Shown here: one piece after another, positions 6,570-19,698 of the stretch | How the letters are laid out: each line of letters begins with the position of its first letter | Numbering within the stretch: position 1 is the first letter of the stretch | Origin: a virus | DNA: 26,014 nt | IMG/VR virus record: IMGVR_UViG_3300046028_003541 | Location: 1-26,014 of that record | Strand: one strand, 5' to 3' | Made by a program: the position numbers and the translations under genes | Notes under the pieces: model-generated | The model's database searches: none | What the model saw: the letters and a program-made list of their open reading frames with translations, nothing else | Told to the model about the DNA's origin: nothing

Positions 6570-6714
6570 GTAAGACTTTCTCGGCTGCTTCTTTCAAAGT
6601 ATTTAGAAGCCCAAGTCTAGCAAAGTTTACAAGAGTATCATAATCCATAGTCACAGTGATTGTAGCAGAACCATCTTCGTTTTCAATAAATTCATCTAAG
6701 GTAAAGTGATCCAT
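6553..6714 (-). CDS. Small acidic hypothetical protein (53 aa)
   Basis: This short gene encodes 53 residues starting MDHFTLDEFIENEDG, with an acidic N-terminus, a short beta-like stretch (SATITVTMDYD) and a C-terminal amphipathic helix. The ATG at 6714 overlaps the upstream TAA by one base (TAATG) and AGGAAG lies about 10 bases upstream. Its end overlaps the phosphoesterase start by 17 bases. The perfect junctions on both sides support it as a real cistron. I cannot assign a function. Confidence 0.7.
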   Translation of the reverse strand: MDHFTLDEFIENEDGSATITVTMDYDTLVNFARLGLLNTLKEAAEKVLHEEKD

Positions 6715-6965
6715 TATGTTGGGCTTCCTGACTTTCCAAGGGCCTTGAGTACAGTGTCCGAACTAGTTGACTGACAGGTGTAAAGCACCTTGCCAGAATT
6801 TGTACCAAGTTCAAGCTGCTTCTGGTTCACAACTGCAATACCAGATTCGTTGCAAGACTGCTCGTTATTGTATTGGGGATCTAATGGAAACTGAACTTCG
6901 GCATAAACATCGCCGTTGCTCATAATGGTAGTCAAAACGATAAACCAGATCATGTTATACCTCAT
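6714..6965 (-). CDS. Small secreted or periplasmic protein with signal peptide
   Basis: The product is 83 residues. It begins with a hydrophobic stretch (MIWFIVLTTIM) ending in VYA-EV, a plausible signal peptidase I site near residue 22. The mature part is about 60 residues and has two cysteines that could form a disulphide. The frame is open further upstream to 7046, but that part is entirely the tRNA gene and is not protein. The ATG at 6965 begins 5 bases after the tRNA CCA. A second ATG at 6953 has GAGG six bases upstream and could be the true start. It probably acts in the periplasm, function unknown. Confidence 0.65.
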   Translation of the reverse strand: MRYNMIWFIVLTTIMSNGDVYAEVQFPLDPQYNNEQSCNESGIAVVNQKQLELGTNSGKVLYTCQSTSSDTVLKALGKSGSPT

Positions 6966-6970
6966 AATAA

Positions 6971-7044
6971 TGGAGCGGGATACGAGATTCGAACTCGTTT
7001 CACTAGCTTGGAAGGCTAGGGCACAACCCATATACCAATCCCGC
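6971..7044 (-). tRNA. tRNA-Gly (anticodon UCC), CCA encoded
   Basis: A 74-base cloverleaf can be drawn on the minus strand. Acceptor GCGGGAT pairs with ATCCCGC over 7 bp, the D arm is GTAT/GTGC with GG in the loop, the anticodon stem is CTAGC/GCTAG around the loop CTTCCAA (anticodon TCC), and the T arm is ACGAG/CTCGT with loop TTCGAAT. Discriminator T is followed by encoded CCA. It lies inside the operon between a small gene and the secreted-protein gene, so it must be processed from a longer transcript. Phage tRNAs usually supplement host codon usage; GGA would be read by this one. Confidence 0.95.
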
Positions 7045-7055
7045 ATTGTTTGTAT

Positions 7056-7344: not shown

Positions 7345-7540
7345 GCGAAATCATCTTCCTCTGCCTGTTGGCTTCTTTGGCATCTTTGGAACGTTTCCTT
7401 GCTGCTTTGGCGATTTCACGTTTCCGTTCTTGGGTGGCGTAGAACCACTCGGTGATCTCCTCAGCCGTCCGGCCGCATCCGCGGCATATTCTTTGATCGT
7501 CTTCATATTCGCATACCTTTCTACAAATGGAATTATTCAT
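7331..7540 (-). CDS. DUF1289 family cysteine-rich protein
   Basis: The 69-residue product matches the DUF1289 pattern. It has Cys residues at ICRKVCEY and CRGCGRT followed by EITEWFYATQERKREI, giving four cysteines in the C-x3-C...C-x2-C arrangement described as a predicted Fe-S or metal site. The C-terminus is a strongly basic helix. It is the last gene of the glycan operon and overlaps the epimerase stop by 8 bases. Bases 7380-7500 are visibly richer in G and C than the flanks, suggesting acquisition from a bacterial host, where the family is common in proteobacteria. The family role is not established. Confidence 0.85.
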   Translation of the reverse strand: MNNSICRKVCEYEDDQRICRGCGRTAEEITEWFYATQERKREIAKAARKRSKDAKEANRQRKMISLDLA

Positions 7541-8519
7541 TGTTCTTCAAATGGTCCAAGCAGTAATCGATACTATCATAAAGTTTCTTTGTCGGTTCCC
7601 ATTTCAATTGATTCCTCGCTTTATTTATATTTGGAATTCGGATCTTAACATCATTAAGATAATCGGCAACAGTTTCAAATTCCAAATTATAGTTTTCAAT
7701 GAGGTTCTTTTCTCGGGCTAAAGAATGAATGACAGTTGCCAATTCTCGCATTGTTACAGGTTCTGGATTACCGAGATTAAAAACATCATTCTTAGTTTCT
7801 TCATCAAAAGAAAAATCAGCTATTGCTTTAGCAACATCTTGAATCCAAGTGAAACATCTTACCTGTTTGCCATCACCAATAATTTCAAGAGGATTGCGTT
7901 TCTCAATAACAATACTTTTTATATAGTCAGCAAAGACATGAGATGTTCCTATTTCACCCTCAGCCTTTTCATAAGGAGTAATAATATTGAATGGGCGCCA
8001 GATTGTGTAGTCGAGTCCGTATTGCTTTTGAAATGCGACAGACATACGTTCACCAACAAACTTGGACATTCCATATTCTGTATATGGCGCTTTATAGTTA
8101 TCTACCATATCTTCGCTCATGGGTATATTGATATCTTGTGGACAATTTTCATATACCATACTTGATGAGATATAGACCACTCTCTTAACGTTATGATTTA
8201 CAGCAGATTCAAGAATGTTGCCATGTAGTAAAGGATCATTATATAAAATGTCCGCGCAGTATTTGTTGAATCCACCAACACCGAAAATTCTAGCAGCAGC
8301 TTGAATGATAAAGTCTGGCTTGAATCTGCCAATTAGAGAATCAATATCGGACTTGTTTGTAAGATCCATCTTTTCGAAATCGTATCCTTTCGCTATTTCC
8401 ATTCTTTTGTTATAGCGAAACAAACTATCTACGCCGAGAACTTCATATCCCTTTTCAAGCAAATATGGAATGACCGCTTGCATCAAGCTGCCTTCGGATC
8501 CAGTCACTAAAATTCTCAT
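7533..8519 (-). CDS. NAD-dependent epimerase/dehydratase (extended SDR)
   Basis: This 328-residue protein is an extended short-chain dehydrogenase acting on nucleotide sugars. The N-terminal Rossmann strand is MRILVTGSEGSLMQ. Its third conserved Gly of GxxGxxG is replaced by Met, which is unusual. The catalytic SSSMVYE serine and the YGMSK (Tyr-x3-Lys) pair are present, as are the downstream RPFNI segment, an IGDGKQVRCFTWIQDV strand-turn and VFNLGNPE, typical of UDP-glucose 4-epimerase and GDP-sugar epimerase relatives. The start gives an ATGA overlap with the dehydrogenase gene. Together with that enzyme it would make modified nucleotide sugars for the glycosyltransferases upstream. The exact substrate cannot be read from the sequence. 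Confidence 0.88.
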   Translation of the reverse strand: MRILVTGSEGSLMQAVIPYLLEKGYEVLGVDSLFRYNKRMEIAKGYDFEKMDLTNKSDIDSLIGRFKPDFIIQAAARIFGVGGFNKYCADILYNDPLLHGNILESAVNHNVKRVVYISSSMVYENCPQDINIPMSEDMVDNYKAPYTEYGMSKFVGERMSVAFQKQYGLDYTIWRPFNIITPYEKAEGEIGTSHVFADYIKSIVIEKRNPLEIIGDGKQVRCFTWIQDVAKAIADFSFDEETKNDVFNLGNPEPVTMRELATVIHSLAREKNLIENYNLEFETVADYLNDVKIRIPNINKARNQLKWEPTKKLYDSIDYCLDHLKNNE

Positions 8520-9733
8520 ATTGTATAAACTCCGTCTGTTGTCTCTTTACTTAGATTTAAAAATTTCCATGCATCAGCAATTACAGTGCCTTGCTTCTTG
8601 GAGATATGGTTATCGAAGAACTTTTGAAATACTGTATGTGGTGTCATAACAATAAATGCATCAAATCCTGTCAAGTCATCTAAAGGCCAGTAGTTGTCTG
8701 GATGCATAAAGTATGGATCAAAGAAGGCGTACTCAATGCCGTGTCTCTTACAAATCTTTGCGAATTTGAAACTTAAACTATTTCTAGCATCGTCGCAATC
8801 AGCTTTGAATGTTGCTCCAAGAATACCAATCTTGCTGATATTAGGATTCTCATTCATCATCATCTTAAACATATATTGTGGCATACCTTCATTGATCAAG
8901 AATGAAGACTGAATCAATTCTGGATAATGTACATCTTCAAGTAGGAACTTACCATCTTTGAATAAACAAGGGCCGCCGACATTTGGTCCAGGTTTAGGTA
9001 ATGCCATACGTGAATAGCCTTTATTAGCAGCATCAATTATTTTGTGTACATCTAAACCTTGATCTGTGCCAATCATGTAGAACTCATTAGCAAGAGCGAA
9101 TGTCACGTAACGATACATATTGGTAATCAATTTACCAAACTCAGCCTCACGTTGTTTTAACCAAATACATTCCGGAACAAAGTTGAATAACTCACACGCG
9201 CGGTTGTATGCCTCTTCTGTACTTGCACCAATGAGTTGAGGAAACTTTTTGCTCTCTATAATACCCACACCTTGAGCTACACGCTCTGGAGCAAACACAA
9301 CATGTGTAGAAACAGAGGATTCTTCTTTTAAGATTTTCTCAATAAGTTCTGTAGTGCCAGGAGCAACTGTACTGCGAAGAACCACAAGCGTATTATCACG
9401 AATGCTTGGTGCAAGAGAGTATCTTACAAAATCTAAGATATCATCAACTCGAGGATTACCTTCTCCATCAACCGGAGTGCCAATCATGATTGCAACAGCA
9501 TCACACTCTTCCAAACGCTCGGTATCTGTAGTGTATATCAAACGATTGGTATTAAGCAAACTCATTAATAAGTCTTTTGCTCCTTCTTCTTTATGAGGAA
9601 CAAAACCACCTAATAGTTGTATACATGCCGCTCTATTACGATCAATACCTATAACTTCATGTCCAGCATCTGCCAAGACAAGAGAAAAAGGAAATCCAAC
9701 ATGCCCGGCAGCACCAATAACAGCTACTTTCAT
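8516..9733 (-). CDS. UDP-sugar 6-dehydrogenase (UDP-ManNAc/UDP-glucose type)
   Basis: This is a 405-residue four-electron nucleotide-sugar dehydrogenase that would oxidise C6 of a UDP-hexose to a uronate. The N-terminal Rossmann fold has VAVIGAAGHVGFP. K201 in EFGKLITNMYRY and the catalytic C256 in NVGGPCLFKD are both conserved. The GGPCL form of the cysteine motif is closer to the WecC (UDP-N-acetylmannosamine dehydrogenase) branch than to plain Ugd. The C-terminal UDP-binding domain contains ILGATFKADCDDARNS. Its ATG follows directly after the GDPD-like gene stop (TAA-ATG) and its stop overlaps the epimerase start. The product would be a uronic acid donor for the operon's glycosyltransferases. 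Confidence 0.92.
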   Translation of the reverse strand: MKVAVIGAAGHVGFPFSLVLADAGHEVIGIDRNRAACIQLLGGFVPHKEEGAKDLLMSLLNTNRLIYTTDTERLEECDAVAIMIGTPVDGEGNPRVDDILDFVRYSLAPSIRDNTLVVLRSTVAPGTTELIEKILKEESSVSTHVVFAPERVAQGVGIIESKKFPQLIGASTEEAYNRACELFNFVPECIWLKQREAEFGKLITNMYRYVTFALANEFYMIGTDQGLDVHKIIDAANKGYSRMALPKPGPNVGGPCLFKDGKFLLEDVHYPELIQSSFLINEGMPQYMFKMMMNENPNISKIGILGATFKADCDDARNSLSFKFAKICKRHGIEYAFFDPYFMHPDNYWPLDDLTGFDAFIVMTPHTVFQKFFDNHISKKQGTVIADAWKFLNLSKETTDGVYTI

Positions 9734-10234
9734 TTATAACGAATTCCTTAAAGTGAGTGGATAGTCAGTACATATTCCATGAAATCTTTCAAAATCTACA
9801 TCATAGTTTATATCATACTTCACTGTTTTGCAAGTAGAATATACAGCAATGCAGTTTTCTCTTGTTGATACTGAATTGATAGCATTCGGATGTACCCATA
9901 TAGTATTGTCTTTGAGAAGAATACATTGATCAATATCGTGGAAAAATGGTATTATATTTCTCTTCTTGATTCTTACCATTTCTTCTAATGCCCAAATATT
10001 TTTGCAATGAACGTAGAAATTTTGATTCATATACAATGTAGACCATTGTAGAAGGGCATCTACCGAAAATGGTTTGAGAGGAGAATCATGACCTAACCAA
10101 AACTTACTAGCAACATACCAGATATCAAATTCGATATCAAAGCCTCTCTCTAGAGCTTCGATTAGGTATGACTCGGTATTCTCTTTATCTTTATCTGGGC
10201 CAGTAAGATTGCCCCTATGAGAAATAATCCTCAC
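9734..10234 (-). CDS. GDPD/PI-PLC-like phosphodiesterase (short)
   Basis: The 166-residue product carries the glycerophosphodiester phosphodiesterase signature: H6-R7-G8, E-N-T at 18-20, E35-x-D37 in DIEFDIW, and H49 in LGHD. Later strands (FYVHCKNI, IWVHPNA, GICTDYP) fit a compact TIM barrel. It is shorter than the usual roughly 240-residue bacterial enzymes, so it is a minimal or divergent form. The start codon is GTG (10234-10232), overlapping the preceding TGA as GTGA. In a glycan operon such an enzyme might trim glycerol-phosphate substituents or act on a phosphodiester-linked sugar. That role is inference. Confidence 0.75.
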   Translation of the reverse strand: MRIISHRGNLTGPDKDKENTESYLIEALERGFDIEFDIWYVASKFWLGHDSPLKPFSVDALLQWSTLYMNQNFYVHCKNIWALEEMVRIKKRNIIPFFHDIDQCILLKDNTIWVHPNAINSVSTRENCIAVYSTCKTVKYDINYDVDFERFHGICTDYPLTLRNSL

Positions 10235-10836
10235 TTAAGTCTCACTATAAGGATTTTATCATCATCACGAACTAGCTTTGAGGGATCTCCCAAATAATCT
10301 TCTAGCTCGTACTTCACATTTAGCGTCTTTAGATGGTATTCAACAGCATTCTTAACTCTGGCATATTGGTTGCCTAGAATATCTTCGATGAAGAAGATGC
10401 CGCCCTTATTAAGCTTTGAGAACCAGACTCTAAAAGTTTCGATCTGGATATCCGGGTCATGCGATCCATCATCAATGATAATGTCAAAACTACCATCTTC
10501 AAATTCAATAGCAGCATCACGTTCTGTTGAACTACGTCCAAATCTAAGTTTTATATTCTTATCGTTCAATAGGTCTTGAGTGTATGGCATGTCTTTAATC
10601 GGATTTGGATGAAGATCGAATCCTACTATATCATACTTCTTAAAATACTTTTTCCACATAGCAAGAGATCCGCCGTGATCAACGCCAATCTCCAACATTC
10701 TAACATTTTTCTGATATGACTTAAACTCTTTATCATAAAGATAGATGTATGTATGATAGGGTAAACCCTTATCAGTGAAACCCTGATTGTGGTTGTAATC
10801 TTTTCCCATATCATTATAAATTTCTAACAGGTTCAT
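10231..10836 (-). CDS. Class I SAM-dependent methyltransferase
   Basis: This 201-residue protein has a Rossmann-like SAM-binding motif I, VRMLEIGVDHGGSLAMW (about residues 45-61), an acidic end of strand 2 in IVGFDLHP, and a DDGSHDPDIQ segment near residue 120 typical of cephalosporin-hydroxylase/macrocin-like methyltransferase relatives that bind a metal for O-methylation. It ends in a beta strand (KILIVRLK). GAAGGA precedes the ATG at good spacing. It lies among sugar genes, so an O-methyltransferase acting on a sugar hydroxyl is the likely role. Confidence 0.82.
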   Translation of the reverse strand: MNLLEIYNDMGKDYNHNQGFTDKGLPYHTYIYLYDKEFKSYQKNVRMLEIGVDHGGSLAMWKKYFKKYDIVGFDLHPNPIKDMPYTQDLLNDKNIKLRFGRSSTERDAAIEFEDGSFDIIIDDGSHDPDIQIETFRVWFSKLNKGGIFFIEDILGNQYARVKNAVEYHLKTLNVKYELEDYLGDPSKLVRDDDKILIVRLK

Positions 10837-10848
10837 ATTATTTTTCCT

Positions 10849-11550
10849 TCAGTATTTTTGGTTTAAGTTCATTCTGGCAACGTAGTCTACAATACCAAGC
10901 TGCACAGGAGTAAGATTAGCATTTTGAAATGCTGCGTTTACAATTGAATGTGGCGGCCATTGGCTACTGAGATTTGGATTTTTCGGATTGAAAAACTCAT
11001 TTGGAATAAATTCAATTATTTTTTCCATGTTGTTTCGCATAGATATTAGAATAACATCATTTGGATAGACATTGCCTTTATCTATTAACACATTGTTTGG
11101 TGTTAGGTCTGCGCTAAAGTCATTGTATACAAGATCACATCGCGTCTTGATTATAACATCGTAATTAAAATTATGAAGTTTTTCATACTCGCGCAGCACA
11201 TCAAACTCGCGCTTCAACTTATAGAATTGAGGATAGAAGGATACGATGTTGTCGTACTTGATTTTGATATCATCTTTGATCTTATCAAGATACTTATCCA
11301 TCTCTTCAGAAGAATCAACTGTTAGATTAATTAGATTAATACCATCAAACATGGTCCGAATTTGTTCTTCGCCTATATCTTCATCTTCATAATATTTTGT
11401 TAGATCCCGAATGTATGGTGCAAAACCATATTTCTTATCGTAAGTGGTAACAAACACATCTGGATTAAATTTAGAGAAAGACTTGACAAAACTGTCTTTT
11501 GTTTTTTCCCAAGTTCTTATATGCCCGGTAAGTATAATCGCAAGTTTCAT
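10849..11550 (-). CDS. Putative glycosyltransferase (GT-A-like)
   Basis: The product is 233 residues beginning MKLAIILTGHIRTWE. The central motif YDVIIKTRCDLVYN resembles the region around the metal-binding acidic residue in a group of uncharacterised viral and bacterial GT-A-like transferases, in which an Arg-x-Asp-Leu replaces a classical DxD. The middle (residues 85-130) is charged and helical. The C-terminus contains QWPPHSIVN. It lies between two methyltransferases in the operon with small gaps (6 and 12 bases). Classification as a glycosyltransferase rests on this motif and on context, and is moderate. Confidence 0.6.
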   Translation of the reverse strand: MKLAIILTGHIRTWEKTKDSFVKSFSKFNPDVFVTTYDKKYGFAPYIRDLTKYYEDEDIGEEQIRTMFDGINLINLTVDSSEEMDKYLDKIKDDIKIKYDNIVSFYPQFYKLKREFDVLREYEKLHNFNYDVIIKTRCDLVYNDFSADLTPNNVLIDKGNVYPNDVILISMRNNMEKIIEFIPNEFFNPKNPNLSSQWPPHSIVNAAFQNANLTPVQLGIVDYVARMNLNQKY

Positions 11551-11556
11551 GTTCTA

Positions 11557-12288
11557 TCAAGCCTTATAGAAATAATGTGTTGGAGCGCCTATGTTTGTTG
11601 GTATTAAACAAGTTGATGATATAGCATTCTCTTCTAGAAATCTATCTAGACCCGCAGCTTCACTCCAGATATGATGCGCGTACTCATCTAAGACAATAAT
11701 ACCACCACTACTTATACGCGGCCACAGAGCCTTCAATGTATGATATGTTGGCTCCGCAAGATCAAGATCAAGATAGAGAAGTGAAATCTTGAATCCAGGT
11801 CTACTCTCAACATACTTATATGATGTTTCTGAAATGTTTCCCTTTATTAATTCAAACTTGGATTGCTGAAATCCTGAAGAAGTAATCTTGCCTGAGATAC
11901 CTTCTATTGACAGATCGTTCTTATTCAAACTCTCACAACGATCAAAGACTTGTTGCATTGACTTCTTATCTTTTTCGTCAGTCAGTTTTTCAACAAAACT
12001 TGGCTCAAAGAAATCAAAACCAATTACCTTCTTAAGAGAATGTGGTTCTTGCATGTTCAAGAATTTTAACCATGCAAGAATACCAGAACCTTTGAATACA
12101 CCACATTCCACGATATCGCCTGGAATATTTTTTACCTTCTCATATAATGAATATCTCCAAAGAAGCTTATGAAGTACATTTCTATCGGACGATATTATGA
12201 ACTCATTATATGAATCGTATAGTTTCTGACCGTTCGTTATCTTATCATAGTTGTTGTATATGTTAACGGTCAATTTACAATTCCCCAT
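11557..12288 (-). CDS. TylF/macrocin-type sugar O-methyltransferase
   Basis: This 243-residue class I methyltransferase has the TylF/MycE/NovP features: IPGDIVECGVFKGSG (SAM motif I, about residues 57-71), the VIGFDFFEPSF acidic loop, LLYLDLDLAEPTY and IIVLDEYAHH. The acidic residues in the last two form the Mg-binding site that family members use to methylate sugar hydroxyls. The ATG lies inside the end of the RLP gene with a 19-base overlap, so the two are translationally coupled. A role in capping or decorating a glycan or a nucleotide sugar is likely. Its position directly after the RLP suggests that it could act on the RLP pathway product. Confidence 0.88.
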   Translation of the reverse strand: MGNCKLTVNIYNNYDKITNGQKLYDSYNEFIISSDRNVLHKLLWRYSLYEKVKNIPGDIVECGVFKGSGILAWLKFLNMQEPHSLKKVIGFDFFEPSFVEKLTDEKDKKSMQQVFDRCESLNKNDLSIEGISGKITSSGFQQSKFELIKGNISETSYKYVESRPGFKISLLYLDLDLAEPTYHTLKALWPRISSGGIIVLDEYAHHIWSEAAGLDRFLEENAISSTCLIPTNIGAPTHYFYKA

Positions 12289-13481
12289 TTTTCTATCGCA
12301 GTATTATACTCGGATCCATAAGTTTTGTCAATAGCTTGACGCATAGCTCTTGCACCAGAAAGAGTTCCTTCAGGATGACCGTGAATTGCACCACCAACAT
12401 TTGCCATATAATCATTACCAAACTTTGATGTAACATAATTGACAAGACCTGGATGCATTCCACAAGAAAGAGCCGGAACAACATTGTGATCATTCAGCAT
12501 CTTGTTAAGTTTTGTCAACTCTTCTTCACTATCTGATAGATATCCACCAAACATGCCAGCATGAATAGTATCAACACCAGAAATTGCAGCTAGTTTGGAC
12601 ATGACATACCATGAAATGCCAAAAGCATTATTCTTGTGTGTTATCACCTTGTCACCACTCTTCTGATAGTGGAGAAACATTGGCAAATCCATCTTACGAA
12701 TTGTATTATAAACACCAAGACCAGACCAGATGTTAATATGCACACCATTACCACCATTGTCGTGGACTAGTTTAACCCGATCCTGAATGTAAGCGGGATC
12801 CGAGTTAATGCAAAAACAATAAACAACATTAGGAAAATCAGAACGCAAGAACTTTGATATGAGAGGTATACGATCCTTTAAAGAGCAGAAAGACGGATTA
12901 GACATGATCTCATCTTCCTTAATAAAGTTTACACCACCTTCACACATCTCTGCAACCATCTTTAGTAATTCTTCAGGAGATAGTCCAATTTTTGGTTTGA
13001 CAATTCCACCAAGAAATGGCTTGTCAAACGTATTCGTGAACTCTCTCATGCCAGAAAGACCATACTTTGGTTTCTTGAAATATTGCATAACACTATTTGG
13101 AAAATGAATATCGATAACACGACATTTGGTAATGTGATCGATATCAGTTTGACCTCCCATAATCTGACAAAGAAGATGCGCGATACCATCTTCTTCCCAG
13201 TCCGTATTGATTATAGGAAATCCAATAACAACATTAGAAACTTTATTTTGACTAAGGCTATATTTAGCCGTGAGTGAATTGACACAAATGATTGCACAGT
13301 TGTTTTCAAAAAGCTTATCGTTTTCCCAATGATTTCTTACATTAGGATTACCAACACTTTGTCCAATCGCTAGATCGTGTGCTGCCTTATATACATTCTC
13401 GGTGCTTTCCAACTCATATTCGACTAGTACATAGTTATCAGCAATTTCTTTGGTAATCTCTCTTATCAATTCAAACGACAT
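12270..13481 (-). CDS. RuBisCO-like protein (form IV-like, RuBisCO large-chain superfamily)
   Basis: The 403-residue protein aligns end to end with RuBisCO large chains. Kept residues (spinach numbers in brackets) are K162 (K175) and K164 (K177) in VKPKIGL; the carbamate/metal triad K188 (K201), D190 (D203) and E191 (E204) in IKEDE; H271 (H294); H307 (H327); S339 (S379); and the phosphate-binding GG 363-364. Changed residues are Y314 for the loop-6 Lys334, G110 for N123, Y272 for R295, and Gly or Gln for E60. A carboxylase is therefore unlikely, and enolisation or isomerisation of a ketose phosphate is more plausible. The C-terminal GGAIHGHPEGT, ARAMRQAID and EKWGIV segments recall archaeal form III enzymes. 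AGGAG precedes the ATG, and the gene overlaps the cupin stop by 11 bases. Confidence 0.92.
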   Translation of the reverse strand: MSFELIREITKEIADNYVLVEYELESTENVYKAAHDLAIGQSVGNPNVRNHWENDKLFENNCAIICVNSLTAKYSLSQNKVSNVVIGFPIINTDWEEDGIAHLLCQIMGGQTDIDHITKCRVIDIHFPNSVMQYFKKPKYGLSGMREFTNTFDKPFLGGIVKPKIGLSPEELLKMVAEMCEGGVNFIKEDEIMSNPSFCSLKDRIPLISKFLRSDFPNVVYCFCINSDPAYIQDRVKLVHDNGGNGVHINIWSGLGVYNTIRKMDLPMFLHYQKSGDKVITHKNNAFGISWYVMSKLAAISGVDTIHAGMFGGYLSDSEEELTKLNKMLNDHNVVPALSCGMHPGLVNYVTSKFGNDYMANVGGAIHGHPEGTLSGARAMRQAIDKTYGSEYNTAIEKWGIVN

Positions 13482-13821
13482 ACTTGTCTCCTATAACAGA
13501 TGGAATTTTTATAGTAATCACTCTACAGTCTTCTAAGAATTTGGGTTTAATTATCTCACCTTTTTCTATAACGAATATATCTCCACTTTCAAAAGTGCGG
13601 ATTGATATGACGTTAAGATCATCATTATATAGCGCGACTTCTAATCTACCCTGAACTAAACAATTATATTCATCTGCTAGAGAATGATAATGCCTGGGCC
13701 ATTCTTCATCTTTCTTATGCTCTAATACAGCAATCTCAAAATCTTTGGTATTGTGAAGAGATGGTTCAAAATTACCAATAAACCATCCTCGAGTAAAGTT
13801 GGATATGTTATTGACTATCAA
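13471..13821 (-). CDS. Cupin-domain protein
   Basis: The 116-residue product folds as a single cupin by pattern. Motif 1, WPRHYHSLADEYNCLVQG, supplies two His and a Glu as possible metal ligands, and motif 2, FESGDIFVIEKGE, keeps the Gly-Asp turn but lacks the usual His. A reduced metal site or a non-catalytic, sugar-binding role is therefore possible. The start is TTG (13821-13819), overlapping the nucleotidyltransferase stop as TTGA, with AGAGG upstream and no ATG nearby. It overlaps the RLP by 11 bases. Cupins include RmlC-like sugar epimerases and, in the Rhodospirillum rubrum RLP pathway, a methylsulfurylase acting after the RLP. Which of these applies is unknown. Confidence 0.82.
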   Translation of the reverse strand: MIVNNISNFTRGWFIGNFEPSLHNTKDFEIAVLEHKKDEEWPRHYHSLADEYNCLVQGRLEVALYNDDLNVISIRTFESGDIFVIEKGEIIKPKFLEDCRVITIKIPSVIGDKYVV

Positions 13822-14558
13822 ATTTCACCTCTATAGTTAGCTAGAAAACAATCTAAGTCTTCAGGGATACCAATTGGCCAATGTTTGTCAATTCCCTGAA
13901 CAATAAACTTTTTATCATCATTGATTGCTTCTTGATAAACAGGAGCAACATAATATTCTCCATTCGTCTTACGACCACTTCTAATCATTTGTTCAGCATA
14001 ACGAACAAAATCAGATCCGTGTTGCCAGAAATATAATCCATTTGTTGCCATATGAGAGATTACTTTCTTCTCTGCAACCTCTGTAGCAAATCCAGTATCA
14101 TCAATCTTCACGAAACTATTCTTCGGATGTACAGAATCAAAAATTATCATGCCGCCATCAGATTTGGAATTGATAAAGTTATTCATCACTAGATTGGCAT
14201 TCCACTCAACAAACTGATCACTGTTTGCCATAAACAACGGACTATCATTGTCGATGAATGGGGCAGCCCTCATTACAGTACAAGCAGCACCTTCCGTTGT
14301 TTCATCTATAGGAATTACATTGCATTTTGGAACAAGCATATCCAACATCACATCAATACCGTATTTCTTGATGTGTTCTCCACGAACAAGGAATGTATAC
14401 TGTGCTTCAATATTCAGGTTCTCAATAACAACCTGAATCATTGGTTTACCTTTAACGCTAATTAGAGGTTTAGGAAAAGCATAACCTACTTGTGCAAAAC
14501 GAGAGCCGGCACCAGCCATAGGTATAACGACATTCAAGTTTGTGTTGCGATATTTCAT
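13818..14558 (-). CDS. Sugar-phosphate nucleotidyltransferase
   Basis: This 246-residue protein has the nucleotidyltransferase fold. The P-loop-like VIPMAGAGSRF (residues 11-21) binds the nucleotide, FPKPLI with K30 follows, and MANSDQFVEW carries the metal-binding Asp in the position of the family DxD-like loop. GLYFWQHGSDFV and GEYYVAPVYQ are further family features. It would activate a sugar 1-phosphate with an NTP, giving an NDP-sugar. The size matches short glycan-cluster enzymes of the LicC/HddC-like type. It has an ATGA overlap with the HtrL gene and a TTGA overlap with the cupin. As the first gene of the nucleotidyltransferase-cupin-RLP trio, it suggests that the RLP and cupin supply or modify its sugar phosphate. 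Confidence 0.9.
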   Translation of the reverse strand: MKYRNTNLNVVIPMAGAGSRFAQVGYAFPKPLISVKGKPMIQVVIENLNIEAQYTFLVRGEHIKKYGIDVMLDMLVPKCNVIPIDETTEGAACTVMRAAPFIDNDSPLFMANSDQFVEWNANLVMNNFINSKSDGGMIIFDSVHPKNSFVKIDDTGFATEVAEKKVISHMATNGLYFWQHGSDFVRYAEQMIRSGRKTNGEYYVAPVYQEAINDDKKFIVQGIDKHWPIGIPEDLDCFLANYRGEI

Positions 14559-15379
14559 AATCTATTATACCTTTTAAAAATCATAAACCAGTCGTTAGGA
14601 TCTGCTTGATGCAATTCAAAATCTTTTTCCTTATCAAGATAGGACATTAACAGAAGAGTTTGATCATCATCAATATAGCTTCTTTTTAGTAGAATGTCAA
14701 CATTTTTATAGATTGATGACTTAAGTTTTTTCCAGGCTTCTTTGCCACCAACAATATGACAGCCTTGTATATACACATCACCAGTTTTTACAATATCTCT
14801 AATGTCACGACTATAGACGATAGGATACTGATTGAAAAAATGGATTTTATTGGGATCAAAGTCATAGCGCCATTTGCCAGATATAGGTAGAGATTGCTTT
14901 GTTCTGCAATATCCAAAATCGATCCATGCTACTAGTGGAGTTTCAACGCTTGGTAATGCTTCGACAACAAAATCTGATTTCATAAAATTGATCATAACGT
15001 ACTTGGAATTCCAGTATTCAGGAAGCCAAGGCTCATTAACTTTGGAGATAAAGCTATCACTGTTCATTGTCTTATCAATATCTTTGAGAAGAGTTTCCTT
15101 GTCATGTGCAGAAAAAACTTCACCATCTGGATATGCTATGATTTTTGTTTTGTCTGCATGACCATGATCTTCACGAATTTTCTTGATTGTTTCAATGAAT
15201 TTTAATTCGGTAAAAATTACCATAGGGTTATCGATGGAAGCTAGAAGATTGAAATAAGATAGATAGGTTTCATTCGTTCTATGCTGATAAGGAGGAAGAA
15301 CGTGACCTCTAACAATACTAGGCCATGTTCCTCTACCAATATCAAAAAAAGCAGTTACAATAGTAATATCACTGGACAT
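14555..15379 (-). CDS. HtrL/YibB family protein
   Basis: The 274-residue product begins DITIVTAFFDIGRGTW and continues with SYFNLLASIDNPMVIFTE, then PLVAWIDFGYCR. This is the pattern of the HtrL/YibB family, found beside LPS-core genes in Escherichia coli. The fold is predicted to resemble GT-A nucleotide-sugar transferases. The WIDFGYCR segment carries an acidic residue where a metal would be bound, and GGKEAW and DDDQTLLLM lie near the C-terminus. It overlaps the GT10 gene by 11 bases and the nucleotidyltransferase by 4. Its presence among glycosyltransferases supports a glycan-transfer role, but the family is biochemically uncharacterised. Confidence 0.85.
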   Translation of the reverse strand: MSSDITIVTAFFDIGRGTWPSIVRGHVLPPYQHRTNETYLSYFNLLASIDNPMVIFTELKFIETIKKIREDHGHADKTKIIAYPDGEVFSAHDKETLLKDIDKTMNSDSFISKVNEPWLPEYWNSKYVMINFMKSDFVVEALPSVETPLVAWIDFGYCRTKQSLPISGKWRYDFDPNKIHFFNQYPIVYSRDIRDIVKTGDVYIQGCHIVGGKEAWKKLKSSIYKNVDILLKRSYIDDDQTLLLMSYLDKEKDFELHQADPNDWFMIFKRYNRL

Positions 15380-16262
15380 ATCGAATCACATTTCCTTCAA
15401 ACCAATTGACTAATCTATCGGTGTTCATAAATTTTGGAACTTGATTGTCAACGAAAATTGGTTCATTGAGCATATCATTATATAGTTGTTCATTCTGGTC
15501 GACTTCTACGATCTTTCGTACAAACTCTTCATCTGTCTCATAGTCGTGTCTGTTAAGAAAAGCTTTTGTATTGAAGTCCAATTCTACAGTTGCACTTCCC
15601 CAGTATATCGGTATTGTTCTTGAATAGAAAGCATGAACCAGTTTCTCAGTAACATATCCAGGATAAGAACCATTCTCATAGCATATAGCAAACTTGTGTT
15701 TAGAAAAGATATCCGTTTTGTTTTTTGTGCCTCTAGGAACAACATGTCCTACATTATTAAGATGAGGACCCCAGCAGTTTACTTTTTTGTATGTTGATAG
15801 ATATTGGACAAAATTGGTTCTTTCAGTGCAATTAGGATTACTGTTGATATACGCACAAAAATTTTCTGTTGCGAAAGGGACAGGCAAAATTTTCTCGTGT
15901 ATATCTTCGTGATTGCAATACCCTAGCTGGTTGATCATTCCCCAAATCTCTACAACATACAAGGGAAGTCTGAAATGAACACCACCATCTAGATGGTCAA
16001 AAGTCAAGGCGCGATGACATTTATAATTCCAGTATCGTCTATTCTCTCCAGTGTAGAAAACTTTTATCGTTTTAGATGGGTCATACTCTAAGTTTTTTGT
16101 GCCAAAATTTTCGTCTCCAAATATTAGTACATGAGGATTCTCATCATCATGTTTAATATTGAATTTTTTTGATAGATGACTAAGAAAGAATGGGACAGAT
16201 AATCCTGAAAACGTATCAGTAAACCCTATTCTTATTTCACGATCCGGCATGCTTATATTCAT
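15369..16262 (-). CDS. GT10 alpha-1,3/4-fucosyltransferase-like
   Basis: This is a GT10-family glycosyltransferase of about 297 residues. VFYTGENRR is the donor-domain entry motif, and KFAICYENGSYPGYVTEKLV followed by IPIYWGS is the family's alpha-1,3-fucosyl motif with the conserved Tyr-Val-Thr-Glu-Lys. The protein would transfer fucose, or a related deoxysugar, from a GDP donor to a glycan. The frame is open to 16316, but that start overlaps the upstream gene by 80 bases and has no ribosome site. The ATG at 16262, with AGAAG upstream and the N-terminus MNISMPDREIRIGFTD, looks better; 16250 is possible. No GDP-fucose synthesis gene is obvious in the window, so the donor would come from the host or another locus. 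Confidence 0.88.
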   Translation of the reverse strand: MNISMPDREIRIGFTDTFSGLSVPFFLSHLSKKFNIKHDDENPHVLIFGDENFGTKNLEYDPSKTIKVFYTGENRRYWNYKCHRALTFDHLDGGVHFRLPLYVVEIWGMINQLGYCNHEDIHEKILPVPFATENFCAYINSNPNCTERTNFVQYLSTYKKVNCWGPHLNNVGHVVPRGTKNKTDIFSKHKFAICYENGSYPGYVTEKLVHAFYSRTIPIYWGSATVELDFNTKAFLNRHDYETDEEFVRKIVEVDQNEQLYNDMLNEPIFVDNQVPKFMNTDRLVNWFEGNVIRYVQ

Positions 16263-17112
16263 TCTGCACTTCTGTGTTCCATTCTGGAATTCTATTATAC
16301 TGGTGAACAATGACATACGGTCTATCGTTTATTTTGTTTATGATAGTAGAAGACAAGTTCCCAGGATTATCTGACCTGTTATAATTAGATTTGTAATACT
16401 CTAATATCTCAGGAGAGTTCCTATATGCTATTCCTATATCACCATTGCCAGCTTTTATTCCAGGCAAAGAAGTTCCTGCATGAATAACATCTTCTGTTTC
16501 ATATACAAAGTTTTTCCAAACTACTGAGTGAAGAAGTATATTAAGTGCTGCTTGATCTGGACCACCACCACCTGAAGGATGCTGAGGTGCAGTAAACCCA
16601 AGAGAAGATAAACAGAGCATTAAGAACTGAAATAGATTTTTATCACCTGCAATAACACCAGCACAATAGATAGGACAATCTTTCATCTTATCATACATCT
16701 GTTCGCCATAAGACTGTTTCATATTGTTCTTTGACCAGGGTTCAATACCGTATGTGAATCCTTCTCTTGCAACAATTATCTTGTTATCAACTCTCAATAG
16801 ATTAGGATCTTCCTGAAAGATCACATCTTTAACATCTGTAGCAACTACAAAATCCACATCTGACATTTCACTATGGTCTAGAATTTTATAGATATCAAAA
16901 AATCTTAATACCATCGAACTGACATTATTAGAAGGATTTGTCATTACCAAATGTACATCATAGTCTTTAACATGATCCTGTAAAGATAGATTGTTGACTA
17001 AAAGAACAATTTTACCTTTGTATCCTGTTCGTCTTAAAGAAACTATCCACGGTTCAATATTAACAAAATCATAATTTATCGCTTGTCCAATAACTACACA
17101 GTTTCTCATCAT
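16237..17112 (-). CDS. Putative glycosyltransferase, TOD1/MUCI70-like
   Basis: The product is about 291 residues. It has a GT-A-like opening (NCVVIGQAINYDF), MVLRFFDIYKIL, and the segment VVATDVKDVIFQEDPN. In the last, Asp-x-x-Asp-Val-Ile-Phe-Gln is a strong match to the acidic motif of TOD1/MUCI70-type glycosyltransferase-like proteins. GPDQAALN near residue 180 resembles the catalytic helix of such enzymes. The ATG at 17112 overlaps the preceding stop as ATGA; an ATG three bases further in is also possible. It is the third gene after the operon promoter. Donor and acceptor are unknown. Confidence 0.72.
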   Translation of the reverse strand: MMRNCVVIGQAINYDFVNIEPWIVSLRRTGYKGKIVLLVNNLSLQDHVKDYDVHLVMTNPSNNVSSMVLRFFDIYKILDHSEMSDVDFVVATDVKDVIFQEDPNLLRVDNKIIVAREGFTYGIEPWSKNNMKQSYGEQMYDKMKDCPIYCAGVIAGDKNLFQFLMLCLSSLGFTAPQHPSGGGGPDQAALNILLHSVVWKNFVYETEDVIHAGTSLPGIKAGNGDIGIAYRNSPEILEYYKSNYNRSDNPGNLSSTIINKINDRPYVIVHQYNRIPEWNTEVQNEYKHAGS

Positions 17113-17690
17113 ACTATTCTTGCACAAACAACATCATTTGGAATATGACCATCTAAGAACTCAATCTTATAGTTTGGATTAATCTTTGTAAGACATTCCA
17201 TTGCACTTGACATACTCACATAAGACCATTCAGCAGAACCAAACAATCTCTTATCATCAACAAAGATGGTATGTTCTTTACATACACTCTTATCAATAAT
17301 GTTTAATTCATCTACTACAGGAGAACCACCACTCTTACCTCCAGCTAGAGGTCCGGATGCATGAGCATCTAACCAGAAAGTAGCTCGATTATTTCCAATC
17401 TCATCAATGATTATAGGAAGAATCTCAGTAGAATCGCCTAGCCAAATCTTAACAGTCGGTTCATTCTTAAACATTTCTACAGCATCATCATAAAGTTTCT
17501 TGTTCAACTCAATTGAGTGTATCTTCTTAAAACCATATTCTAGGGCAAGCTTTACAGTATCGCCCAAATATGTTCCTGTTTCAACAAAGATATCGCCAGA
17601 AGCATATGTCTTTAGATAGTCTAATGTTAAATGAGAAGGATGATTCCATTCATAAACTGTTTCGCCCGGTAGTATTAGTTTATATTCCAT
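17109..17690 (-). CDS. SAM-dependent methyltransferase-like protein
   Basis: This 193-residue protein has a Rossmann motif I DIFVETGTYLGDTV (about residues 33-46), then KKIHSIELNKKLY with the acidic SAM-ribose ligand, and VKIWLGDSTEILP. This matches FkbM-related class I methyltransferase-like proteins that accompany glycan clusters. The segment FWLDAHASG and a Gly-rich loop lie in the middle. AAGGG precedes the ATG, and the gene overlaps the GT2 stop by 16 bases. A sugar O-methyltransferase role is likely. Confidence 0.78.
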   Translation of the reverse strand: MEYKLILPGETVYEWNHPSHLTLDYLKTYASGDIFVETGTYLGDTVKLALEYGFKKIHSIELNKKLYDDAVEMFKNEPTVKIWLGDSTEILPIIIDEIGNNRATFWLDAHASGPLAGGKSGGSPVVDELNIIDKSVCKEHTIFVDDKRLFGSAEWSYVSMSSAMECLTKINPNYKIEFLDGHIPNDVVCARIV

Positions 17691-18412
17691 GGTAATTTGC
17701 CCTTATAATGTTCAAGTTGCTGTTCGTTACCCTTGATGAAGAAATTAGCATCAGGAGAATTTGGATTTGCGTCTGTTCTATAACATAGAGTGTGCTTATA
17801 ACTTGTATCCCACTTCGGATTTTGAGCTAATACACTGTAAAGATATTTGCGATCACCACCCCAACCAGAATGCCAAAAATGACATGTCTTTTGTAAGAAC
17901 TTTGTATTGAATGCAAAGGAAGATGTATCAACAAGATACTGAGGATCATTGTGTGAGAAATAGATTGGCCATTTGCCTAGAGCTTCACAGTTATCATCTG
18001 CGATATATGTCTTGTCGGGAGAGTATATCTTGCGTAATGAATAAGCGAAATCATTACCTTGATCAAGCACCTCTACAAGAGTTCTCACATGATCTTTCTC
18101 ATACCAGTTATCTTCATCAAGCAAAAAGACATAATCAGCATTGATTAGATGAGGAACACCAGCATAGATGCGATGACCGTAGAATCCATTTGCGCCTGTG
18201 TTCCAAGGTAAAGGTAAAATTTTCATTTTGGAATTTGGTGCAAAAGGTAGAATATCTACAGTTGAATCGAAATGTTTATTGCCATCAACGACGATAAGAT
18301 GTTCAAGATTGCCATATGTTTGCCTTTGAACGCTTTCAATAGCATCTGCTAGTTTTGGGGAACCGATTGTGGGTGTGATAACGACCACAGACTTTTCAAT
18401 AATGAGTTTCAT
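17675..18412 (-). CDS. Glycosyltransferase family 2
   Basis: This is a GT-A transferase of about 245 residues. The opening SVVVITPTIGS and the IESVQRQTYGNLEHLIVVDG segment are the classical GT2 nucleotide-binding start. YVFLLDEDNWYE (about residues 93-104) holds the DxD. The ending (HCFWHSGWGGDRKY-like, then LCYRTDANPN) is typical of a small GT2. The frame is open to 18454, but that lies inside the promoter/terminator element, so the ATG at 18412 (MKLIIEK) is the start. It is the first gene of the glycan operon, 31 bases downstream of the -10 box. Confidence 0.88.
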   Translation of the reverse strand: MKLIIEKSVVVITPTIGSPKLADAIESVQRQTYGNLEHLIVVDGNKHFDSTVDILPFAPNSKMKILPLPWNTGANGFYGHRIYAGVPHLINADYVFLLDEDNWYEKDHVRTLVEVLDQGNDFAYSLRKIYSPDKTYIADDNCEALGKWPIYFSHNDPQYLVDTSSFAFNTKFLQKTCHFWHSGWGGDRKYLYSVLAQNPKWDTSYKHTLCYRTDANPNSPDANFFIKGNEQQLEHYKGKLPWNIN

Positions 18413-18431
18413 AATATACCTATAAAAAGAA

Positions 18432-18460
18432 GAGAGGACACTATTATATAGCATCCTCTC
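18432..18460 (-). terminator. Hairpin terminator of pstS with the next promoter's -10 box in its loop
   Basis: On the minus strand, after the pstS stop, GAGAGGATGCTAT pairs with ATAGTGTCCTCTC (13 bp, two of them G-T wobbles) around an ATA loop, and is followed by TTCTTTTTAT. This is a good rho-independent terminator. The loop and the top of the stem spell TATAAT, the -10 of the promoter for the downstream operon. Confidence 0.8.
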
Positions 18461-18474: not shown

Positions 18475-19449
18475 TTACTTAAGCGGGATAAGACCCTTGT
18501 CTACGAGATAGCCATCCGAACCGATAGCATCTTCACTCTTGTATTCTTCCATGAACTTCTTCAAGTTTGGATTAGATTCCATATGTGAAGTCTTGAAGTA
18601 TACATAGAGCTTACGCGAGATAGGATACTGCCCAGCAGCAATTGCTCCGTATTCTGGAACAATGCCGTTAACAGTAGTGCCGCTGATTGAGTTCGTATTC
18701 TGCTCAAGGAAAGAGAATCCAAAGATACCTAGAGCCTTAGGATTGGCCTGAATCTTTTGTACGATTAGATTGTCATTCTCACCAGCCTCAACATATGCGC
18801 CATCTTCACGAACAGATAGACAGAATGTCTTTGTGTCTTCCGGTGATGCGATGATGTTGTTCTTCTTAATGACAGACTTACATTCCTTTTCAAACACCAA
18901 CTCAATAAATGAGTCACGGGTACCTGAAGTTGGCGGAGGACCTAGAACTTCAATCTTGTCAGCAGGAAGATCATCACGAATGTCCTTCCATGTCTTAGCA
19001 GTGTTCTCTTTGAAACCACCATCAACGAAAACATACTTGGCTAGAGCATTGTAAATGTCTTCGGTTGTTAAGTTCATATCAACATGTTCCTTGGATGCTG
19101 CTAGAACAATAGCATCAATACCAATTTCGATGACTTCTATTTCCTTAACGCCAGCCTTGGCACAAGCCTCAACTTCTTCCTTCTTCATCTTGCGCGAAGC
19201 ATTGACTGCATCGGGAGTTTCTGGGCCGTTACCAGCACAGAACAACTTAATACCACCACCAGTACCAGTTGATTCGACGATTGGTGCAGATACACCATTC
19301 TTTTTAGCAAACTGTTCTGCTACAGCGGTTGTGAAAGGATAAACAGTAGATGATCCAACGACACGAATCTGGTCGCTGGTAGCATAAGCAGCACTAGTGC
19401 CAAAAGCAAATAGAGCAGCAGCAAGAGTAATCATAGTCTTATTGTTCAT
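18475..19449 (-). CDS. pstS: PstS phosphate-binding protein
   Basis: This 324-residue protein is the periplasmic phosphate receptor of the Pst ABC transporter. The signal peptide is ITLAAALFAFGTSAAYA-TS (cleavage near residue 23). Phosphate-contact loops are SSTVYPF, the STGTGGGIKLFC Gly loop, NASRKM, and the late PPTSGTRDSF loop. No pstCAB or phoU is adjacent, so it would work with the host permease. Such genes are known auxiliary metabolic genes of marine T4-like phages and are thought to help infected cells take up phosphate. The GGAG before the ATG is well spaced. I cannot see a convincing Pho box; the upstream hairpin is described separately. Confidence 0.95.
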   Translation of the reverse strand: MNNKTMITLAAALFAFGTSAAYATSDQIRVVGSSTVYPFTTAVAEQFAKKNGVSAPIVESTGTGGGIKLFCAGNGPETPDAVNASRKMKKEEVEACAKAGVKEIEVIEIGIDAIVLAASKEHVDMNLTTEDIYNALAKYVFVDGGFKENTAKTWKDIRDDLPADKIEVLGPPPTSGTRDSFIELVFEKECKSVIKKNNIIASPEDTKTFCLSVREDGAYVEAGENDNLIVQKIQANPKALGIFGFSFLEQNTNSISGTTVNGIVPEYGAIAAGQYPISRKLYVYFKTSHMESNPNLKKFMEEYKSEDAIGSDGYLVDKGLIPLK

Positions 19450-19465
19450 AGTAACTCCATAATAA

Positions 19466-19495
19466 ATATTGAGGGAGCTGATTCCCCCTCAATAT
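19466..19495 (-). terminator. Hairpin between the hsp20 group and pstS
   Basis: ATATTGAGGG and CCCTCAATAT form a perfect 10 bp stem with a 10-base loop, followed on the minus strand by TTATT. It may end hsp20 transcripts or be a structured 5' leader of pstS. The T tract is short, so the terminator call is moderate. A weak promoter-like pair (TTGGCT-N16-TATATT) overlaps its upstream edge. Confidence 0.5.
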
Positions 19496-19501
19496 ATAGT
19501 G

Positions 19502-19549
19502 TTATTGGCCAGATAGCCAATCAGCTTCTTCATTAGTATAAGGAGCCAT
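19502..19549 (-). CDS. Possible 15-residue micro-ORF
   Basis: ATG to TAA encodes MAPYTNEEADWLSGQ. Its ATG shares one base with the preceding stop (TAATG), the same junction used by real genes next to it. That is the only support, and it may be chance. Confidence 0.2.
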   Translation of the reverse strand: MAPYTNEEADWLSGQ

Positions 19550-19698
19550 TACCAATGTCTCCTATCGTTATAGGACTTGCGGTCCCATTCACGCTGAAGC
19601 CATTCTAAGTGAGCTTGATCGGTAGCTTGACAAAGATAATCATACATACGATCATGCTCACTCTTGCGAGTGAATAGTTTCTTCAGTGTTCTTATCAT
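19549..19698 (-). CDS. DUF3563-like small protein
   Basis: The product has 49 residues with a basic N-terminus (TLKKLFTRK), then YDYLCQATDQAHLEWLQREWDRK. The last stretch resembles the conserved helix pair of the DUF3563 family of proteobacterial small proteins (YLxxATDxxxLExxxRExDR). The ATG overlaps the hsp20 stop by one base (TAATG), so it is translationally coupled. The function is unknown. Confidence 0.65.
   Translation of the reverse strand: MIRTLKKLFTRKSEHDRMYDYLCQATDQAHLEWLQREWDRKSYNDRRHW

Follow-up and report, generated by a model that had tools for sequence, protein, structure and literature searches.

The locus considered here raises the question of what a member of the RuBisCO superfamily is doing among the nucleotide-sugar and glycan genes of a phage. 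The DNA is IMG/VR virus record IMGVR_UViG_3300046028_003541, positions 1 to 26,014, and this whole stretch of 26,014 nucleotides is called the window below; the gene in question encodes a RuBisCO-like protein (RLP). To our knowledge, RuBisCO-like proteins have few known functions, all of them in salvage or catabolism. We think it rather probable that the RLP of the window is a non-carboxylating sugar-phosphate isomerase or enolase that would feed nucleotide-sugar synthesis for a phage-directed glycan. If this is true, a mostly viral clade of RLPs within a biosynthetic sugar cassette would give the fold a new role and, very likely, a reaction not seen in it before. The gene itself is as follows:

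12270..13481, minus strand: RuBisCO-like protein (RLP), 403 amino acids; PF00016 at 6e-40, AlphaFold model, PDB matches to form III RuBisCO and MtnW

A preliminary description of the window, made from its letters alone, had claimed a full-length RuBisCO-superfamily protein at this place, and the claim is borne out on the minus strand. The open reading frame (ORF) starts with ATG, has zero internal stops and has exactly these boundaries; plus-strand frame 1 across the same interval contains many stops. The Pfam match reaches 137.8 bits against a cut-off of 30.1, and an AlphaFold model made with an alignment of 57 relatives (pLDDT 95, pTM 0.92) supplies the structural check that the description had proposed; match and model together place the RuBisCO large-subunit fold over the full length of the protein. 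The closest folds in the PDB are those of the form III protein 2cwx_E (Z 44.3, 379 residues) and the MtnW protein 2zvi (Z 43.2), with a TMq of 0.86 against form III 2d69_A. Fold and conservation rule out a chance ORF.

It is useful to read the active site across the whole family. A five-sequence profile scan found 90 stretches encoding a relative among 2.9 million IMG/VR contigs, and 80 of these, on 80 contigs, were kept; together with one contig from a first scan, two cellular loci and the window they make 84 loci (82 of them viral records), which fall into 57 groups at 90% identity. One representative of each group was compared, by aligned column, with 52 reference rows of forms I-III, OiaX-like, MtnW and DeepYkr-type proteins, in what we take to be spinach residue numbering, anchored on one form I-type row. 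Identical in 57/57 groups are K188 (K201, the carbamate residue), D190 (D203) and E191 (E204), as are K162 (K175) and K164 (K177) of the KPK motif; all groups also retain H327, S379 and G381, and G403 and G404 are kept in 56, the remaining row being gapped. The replacements are just as uniform: E60 is Gly40, T65 is Asn45, N123 is Gly110, H294 is Gln273, R295 is Lys274, K334 is Tyr314 and G380 is Cys340 in all 57 groups, and H298 is Asp277 in 56. The triad, the KPK motif, the Tyr for Lys334 and the Gly for Asn123, all of which the preliminary description had picked out in the window, are therefore the same in every group.

The residues E60, N123, H294, R295 and K334 have a role in carboxylation. 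All five, which serve to tell form IV proteins apart, are replaced without exception, and at the Lys334, Asn123, Glu60 and His294 of carboxylating RuBisCO (forms I-III) the RLP has Tyr314, Gly110, Gly40 and Gln273. Loop-6 lysine mutants of RuBisCO enolise without carboxylating, a behaviour with which the change of K334 to Tyr fits. The two phosphate sites can be read against the established structure of RuBisCO: the C1-phosphate site keeps its glycines and the other phosphate site is altered, which points to a singly phosphorylated substrate with a polar tail. The phage clade also has residues of its own. The column of His294 is His in 52/52 reference rows, so that Gln at this position is peculiar to the phage clade among the groups compared, and the R295 column holds Arg or Pro in the reference rows and Lys in the phage clade. 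Gln273-Lys274-Ser275-Gly276 and Cys340 are invariant across the 57 groups, and none of the 52 reference rows has the Gln, Lys or Cys of positions 273, 274 and 340 in the corresponding column.

Scores and trees agree in setting the protein apart. It falls under the cut-off of all six NCBIfam models that it matches: three for RuBisCO (rubisco_III, 187 bits against 497; PRK04208, 184 against 438; PRK13475, 110 against 489), two for MtnW (129.9 against 513.6 and 155.2 against 409) and one for OiaX (145.5 against 700). A tree of 80 rows, from a short search and with reference rows that do not include the IV-Photo, IV-GOS, IV-EnvOnly and other environmental RLP clades, gives the phage clade an SH-aLRT support of 100 on a long stem and places the OiaX-like, MtnW and DeepYkr-type proteins in supported groups of their own, apart from it. 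Reference labels follow NCBIfam scores for ten rows and the record's annotation for L141; L117 and L144 were labelled by matches to the PDB or to the MtnW model, and the others by where they fall in the tree; the label 'I_and_like' covers mixed forms. A tree that joins the phage clade to MtnW is not rejected (p-AU 0.288); in the best tree the two are separate. By the cut-offs and residues tested, the window protein is a form IV RuBisCO-like protein and not OiaX, MtnW or a carboxylating RuBisCO. This upholds the form IV-like assignment of the preliminary description, since the clade stands apart from forms I-III, MtnW, DeepYkr and the OiaX-like proteins and has lost the carboxylation residues; the phylogeny that it had called for puts the RLP outside the carboxylating clades.

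The RLP family is widespread and mostly viral. The window comes from a virus record and encodes a DNA polymerase of phage type (phrog_262, 1076 bits), which rules out a misassigned bacterial contig and agrees with the phage origin assumed by the preliminary description; for another locus (L006) the same possibility is ruled out by a major head protein gene about 1.8 kb from the RLP. Beyond viral contigs, the 84,980-species genome collection held two cellular loci with the RLP: that of a Patescibacteria metagenome-assembled genome (L007) is nested within viral diversity in the tree, and that of Azospirillum oleiclasticum (L008) is sister to all other clade members. In the Azospirillum class, from which 385 genomes were scanned, A. 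oleiclasticum alone has it (473 bits; next best 127), and among 286 genomes of the phylum of L007 there is one (659 bits; the next best, at 223, is a form III protein). Plasmids yielded 364 records, all below 60% identity, and the ten matches listed, at 27-29%, are of the OiaX-like kind. INPHARED had relatives in 0/50,697 phage records. These scans use short conserved patterns or sampled genomes, and the counts are therefore lower bounds.

Viral contigs were also scanned with other members of the superfamily, in four scans (mixed, form I, form II and OiaX-like) that use two short patterns per query and are not exhaustive. With the mixed form I/II/III profile 7 relatives came up, and each belongs to the phage RLP clade, scoring 560-695 bits with the phage RLP profile and 147-201 with a canonical one; three of their contigs (L240-L242) are new. 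The form I, form II and OiaX-like profiles found no relatives in this set of 2.9 million viral contigs. Within the reach of these scans, the phage RLP clade makes up the whole RuBisCO superfamily in the viral collection. Flanking proteins were compared with PHROGs for the window and five other loci (L002, L006, L057, L067 and L084): close to the cassette, L057, L067 and L084 encode phage proteins of the ssDNA-binding, helicase or primase kind, L006 has the head protein, and L002 has tail fibre and PhoH-like proteins. Since the phage genes that flank the cassettes differ, the module seems to move between phage lineages.

The evidence that bears most on function lies in the genes around the RLP. 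In the window, all on the minus strand, these are:

13818..14558, minus strand: sugar/alditol-phosphate nucleotidyltransferase (NTase); PF00483 at 1.3e-10, 4evw NDP-sugar pyrophosphorylase at 7.5e-14
13471..13821, minus strand: cupin-fold protein with an HxH...E motif (H44, H46, E51); phrog_24762 at 8.7e-25, 3d82 cupin at 1e-4, alignment A3
11557..12288, minus strand: TylF-type O-methyltransferase; PF05711 at 1.1e-13, present in 5/57 groups
10849..11550, minus strand: GT-A-like glycosyltransferase; structure prediction and Foldseek, no Pfam family
10231..10836, minus strand: methyltransferase (Methyltransf_24); PF13578 at 4.9e-10
9734..10234, minus strand: short GDPD-like phosphodiesterase (provisional); phrog_34507 at 1.9e-21, pattern HRG..EN..E.D..GHD
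8516..9733, minus strand: UDP-glucose/GDP-mannose dehydrogenase-like protein; PF03721 at 1.2e-29
7533..8519, minus strand: NAD-dependent nucleotide-sugar epimerase/dehydratase; PF01370 at 2.9e-44

Together with the RLP these are nine genes, from the NTase through the epimerase, with gaps of only -19 to 12 bases, so that they look like one transcript; from NTase to cupin to RLP to TylF the gaps are -4, -11 and -19, the cupin gene overlapping the RLP start. Within six genes and on the same strand as the RLP, the NTase is present in 53/57 groups, the cupin in 52/57, the GDPD-like gene in 44/57 and all three in 40/57; these neighbour counts leave out the cassette of L008, missed by the gene caller, and an opposite-strand NTase of L007. 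In 46/57 groups the cupin gene lies directly 5' of the RLP; the most common junction of the two is a 4-base overlap (24 loci). Several loci (L049, L060 and L079, for example) end near the RLP, and absence of the GDPD-like gene there means little. The order NTase-cupin-RLP-TylF given by the preliminary description holds in the window, and NTase-cupin-RLP, contiguous in 43/57 groups, recurs in viral and bacterial genomes when the order is searched for; TylF is not a constant member. In A. oleiclasticum the genes are likewise contiguous, as GDPD-RLP-cupin-NTase. Two loci (L022 and L033) have the NTase followed directly by the RLP with no recognised cupin, which makes it plausible that the product of the RLP can feed the NTase itself.

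The assignments of the partner genes differ in how firmly they can be made. In the NTase, G16, G18, R20, K30, D114, E163 and K164 are invariant columns (alignment A8, 23 sequences). Pfam cupin models match part of 41 cupin members weakly (Cupin_7 in 18, Cupin_2 in 10), and the window cupin is unmatched. The GT-A-like family is fast-evolving and lies at most 6 kb from the RLP in 35/57 groups; its model (pLDDT 81) finds GT-A enzymes by Foldseek at a best E of 6e-6 and a TMq of about 0.44. In the GDPD-like protein the H-R-G, E-N, E-x-D, G-H-D pattern is conserved (alignment A4, 32 sequences), and a matching cyanophage gene of this family is annotated as glycerophosphoryl diester phosphodiesterase; the name is provisional because a Pfam scan gave no match in 32/32 members. 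In two loci a HAD phosphatase is fused ahead of an NTase of the same family, as a second copy (L006, 11156-12520; L017, 13575-14972).

The strongest hint at the function of the RLP, an indirect one, comes from loci that have the cupin and lack the RLP. A scan with the cupin kept the best 80 of 497 loci, of which three were dropped as having no recognised cupin ORF; among the remaining 77, the RLP is present in 67 and absent from 10. Five of these 10 have the order NTase-cupin-X-GDPD, with a protein X of 240-248 amino acids exactly in the position of the RLP:

6318-7037 in L212, L214, L224 and L225, and 6318-7061 in L232: phosphomannomutase-like protein X; PF03332 in the 3 scanned

The phosphomannomutase domain scores 36.5-49.2 bits in those three, against a cut-off of 22.4, and a search for X in the available stretches of the 84 RLP loci gave no match. 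RpiB is a ribose/galactose-phosphate isomerase domain, and in the cyanophages Bellamy and SynMITS9220M01 it is fused to the NTase that adjoins the same cupin (3.9e-32 and 4.1e-33). Several RLP-less cassettes thus have sugar-phosphate-rearranging enzymes in the slot of the RLP or beside its cupin. Because one slot holds either RLP or phosphomannomutase, and the cupin has a third partner in RpiB, a direct and testable guess at the chemistry becomes possible. A cyanophage NTase-RpiB fusion at 7847-9004 of L085 and L086 carries the record annotation 'phosphatase'.

A mechanism can be sketched that would accommodate these features. Carbamylated K188, with Mg2+ on D190 and E191, would remove the proton at C3 from a sugar phosphate with a 2-keto group. 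As Lys334, Asn123 and His294 are missing, no CO2 would be added to the enediolate, which would be reprotonated elsewhere to yield an isomer, an epimer or a carbonyl-shifted ketose. The RLP would accordingly belong among the sugar-phosphate isomerases, epimerases or 1,3-carbonyl-shift enzymes. Its product would pass to the NTase, directly or by way of the cupin, which may be a further isomerase or epimerase, and would become a nucleotide-activated rare sugar or polyol; the glycosyltransferase would add this product to a glycan of the host surface or of the virion. The GDPD-like protein would perhaps release a phosphorylated precursor or recycle a phosphodiester. Support for this proposal comes from the fold, the residues, the clade, the cassette and the sugar-phosphate enzymes found in the slot of the RLP or beside its cupin. 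The methionine-salvage RLPs offer a precedent, in that both use 2-keto 1-phosphates and one pairs with a cupin, according to the accessible part of PMC5893883. The idea of the preliminary description that the protein had been recruited into phage nucleotide-sugar or glycan synthesis gains from a cassette conserved in diverse phages; recruitment in a single phage was too narrow a picture of what is a widespread family.

Several observations weigh against a sugar-phosphate isomerase or enolase serving nucleotide-sugar synthesis. Gln at H294 and Lys at R295 may mean a chemistry that differs from that of RuBisCO and of the known RLPs. A search of the predicted viral structures in BFVD gave no full-length match (best TMq 0.39), and a PHROGs search with the RLP gave no match. 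The RLP share of 67/77 is biased upward because only the best 80 of 497 loci were kept and the query came almost wholly from RLP cassettes. The replacement by phosphomannomutase is seen in about two lineages: X forms two that are 46-49% identical to each other, with four of the five proteins 76-89% identical. The other five RLP-less loci differ among themselves. The order in L227 is NTase-cupin-methyltransferase-GDPD, and inspection of its listed genes by eye turned up no isomerase; in L198 and L229 the NTase is fused to a HAD domain, the genes of L199 are arranged as in L198, and the sequence of L197 stops at the cupin. Nearby genes therefore do not always supply an isomerase or mutase step. 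In L024 and L063 the RLP occurs with neither NTase nor cupin; in L063 (2528-2959 and 10001-11230) the RLP and GDPD-like genes are accompanied by an RpiB-like ORF about 7 kb away on the other strand, the one such match across RLP loci. Finally, the GDPD-like assignment is weak in profile searches (phmmer against GDPD 1v8e, E 0.52).

Other readings of the RLP must be set beside this one. A fairly unlikely one is that it is an OiaX-like decarboxylase, or another enzyme that cleaves C-C bonds, acting on a keto-acid sugar phosphate in the glycan pathway. The best tree puts the phage clade and the OiaX-like proteins on one side of a branch, at a support of only 24, and the UDP-sugar dehydrogenase-like protein of the window operon could make sugar acids; however, the score on the OiaX model is about a fifth of the cut-off, and 17 OiaX-like rows keep H294, R295 and K334, with Ser at K177 in 14 of the 17, whereas the phage clade differs at all four positions.

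It is also worth considering a phage version of the methylthioadenosine (MTA)-isoprenoid shunt, in which the RLP would isomerise 5-methylthioribulose-1-phosphate, the cupin would remove the methylthio group and the glycan genes would be mere neighbours, the outcome being MTA recycling or production of 1-deoxyxylulose-5-phosphate. The cupin so often found immediately 5' of the RLP would suit it, and a DeepYkr RLP and a cupin methylsulfurylase do cooperate in R. palustris and R. rubrum, according to the accessible part of PMC5893883. Against this, a tree joining the phage clade to the DeepYkr type is rejected (p-AU 0.00018), and the R295 column is Pro in the MtnW and DeepYkr rows and Lys in the phage clade. 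Furthermore, a Pfam scan of 20 window proteins found no MTA phosphorylase or methylthioribose-1-phosphate isomerase domain, and the NTase accompanies the RLP as regularly as the cupin does (53/57 and 52/57 groups); we regard the shunt as unlikely. The DeepYkr type is represented by 3qfw, which we take to be the DeepYkr protein of R. palustris.

It is quite unlikely that the RLP has ceased to be an isomerase and now serves as a dehydratase, or in a binding or structural role, by way of Gln273-Lys274-Ser275-Gly276 and Cys340; the invariance of these residues in the phage clade, and the absence of Gln273, Lys274 and Cys340 from every reference row, would suit such a change, whereas the fully conserved metal and carbamate residues point to catalysis of the superfamily type. 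That the RLP is a real carboxylase, for phage carbon fixation or nucleoside salvage, is very improbable: the carbamate triad and KPK motif are retained and a soil-virus rbcL1 is reported, in the accessible part of PMC12615777, to be active when co-expressed with rbcS, but E60, T65, N123, H294, R295 and K334 are replaced with no exception in 57 groups, the type III model is missed by a wide margin (187 bits against 497) and the neighbours are of glycan rather than Calvin-cycle type. Lost carboxylation residues and glycan-type neighbours led us to reject carbon fixation as the principal explanation.

Outside the nine genes discussed above, the window and some of the other loci contain further features:

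14555..18454, minus strand: further glycan-block genes, including the next three
14555-15379, minus strand: HtrL_YibB-family protein (family without a listed function); PF09612 at 5e-46
15369-16316, minus strand: GT10 fucosyltransferase-like protein; PF00852
17675-18454, minus strand: GT2 protein; PF00535
748..3303, minus strand: family B DNA polymerase, phage type; phrog_262 at 1076 bits, PF00136

Genes for a PstS-like phosphate-binding protein and Hsp20 (18475-20237), similar to those of marine T4-like phages, separate the glycan block from a large methyltransferase fusion. The fusion itself (20341-22872) is an unusual protein of 843 amino acids with Methyltransf_24, weak FkbM-type and DUF6445 domains. 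A tRNA-Gly (TCC) at 6971-7044, minus strand, overlaps a small called ORF at 6714-7046, which at the tRNA end is probably not a gene. Tandem repeats with periods of 18, 27, 36, 72 and 78 at the end of the window (25028-26014) are possibly a repetitive tail-fibre gene, and a putative tail protein at 24979-25572 had no PHROGs match at 1e-5. In Azospirillum (L008, 6771-9568), the genes after the cassette include a TPR glycosyltransferase-like protein and two that, judged from motifs, presumably resemble the two subunits of sulfate adenylyltransferase; L008 is possibly a bacterial glycan sulfation locus, which would lend itself to genetic work.

The published record bears on how such genes are named. 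Viral rbcL is taken as a carbon-fixation gene in the accessible parts of PMC12607003, PMC12615777, PMC8506154, PMC13390420, PMC12376549 and PMC13288924, and since several recent papers count these genes as carbon fixation the matter has ecological bearing. The genes reported there resemble the present one in being RuBisCO-type genes on viral contigs, and the same parts of the six papers show no glycan cassette around them. PMC12607003, in the part available, describes five landfill instances of rbcL, finds the function also in random IMG/VR viruses and places a landfill viral protein with 'RbcL-like' sequences, and in the corresponding part of PMC12615777 rbcL1 is assayed with rbcS. Global Ocean Sampling data gave new RuBisCO branches (PMC1821046, in part), and the available parts of PMC9875498 and PMC13269706 make no mention of phage RuBisCO. 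A literature search, with preprints and most subscription papers outside its reach, found nothing that links an RLP with glycan synthesis in phages or gives the clade a name; in this the preliminary description, which knew of no such role in a tailed phage, was right, with the qualification that viral RuBisCO-type genes are already in print as carbon fixation. Because our four viral-contig scans found no relative outside the clade that lacks the carboxylation residues, the published viral 'rbcL' carbon-fixation genes deserve re-examination, and viral 'RuBisCO' genes may often be unrelated to carbon fixation. A wider picture can be offered only tentatively: tailed phages might have evolved a RuBisCO clade of their own, with an active site unlike all references compared (Gln for His294, Lys for Arg295, Tyr for Lys334, Cys for Gly380), as a carbonyl-shifting isomerase that replaces a phosphosugar mutase in a portable nucleotide-sugar cassette, moving the carbonyl and not the phosphate; most viral RuBisCO-superfamily genes would belong there, and much reported viral 'rbcL' would be glycan chemistry.

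Known systems resemble this one in part. Form III RuBisCO (2cwx, 2d69) gives the best fold match, at 25-26% identity, and the best phmmer match, yet its carboxylation residues are absent from the RLP. MtnW, the 2,3-diketo-5-methylthiopentyl-1-phosphate enolase, shares a non-carboxylating fold, the carbamate-metal triad and Gly at E60, but its rows have Lys at the N123 column where the phage clade has Gly. The OiaX-like proteins, the group of 3-oxo-isoapionate-4-phosphate decarboxylase, are alike in being bacterial RLPs of sugar-acid phosphate metabolism. The sugar clusters of cyanophages and jumbo phages, with their NTases, HADs, epimerases and cupins, share the NTase and GDPD-like families with the cassette, and those of two phages have the same cupin family, although the 50,697 phage records hold no RLP; the part of the main text available for jumbo-phage clusters (PMC7824862) is without RuBisCO. 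A parallel in organisation is the DeepYkr system, in which an RLP is paired with a cupin: in the accessible part of PMC5893883, the RLP of R. rubrum and R. palustris shifts the carbonyl along 5-methylthioribulose-1-phosphate with a cupin as its partner, and the R. palustris genes for the DeepYkr RLP and the cupin methylsulfurylase are numbered RPA2169 and RPA2170. The five DeepYkr rows nevertheless have His at E204, Arg at K334 and Pro at R295, where the phage clade has Glu, Tyr and Lys, and to the pair of RLP and cupin the phage cassette adds an NTase, a GDPD-like protein and a glycosyltransferase.

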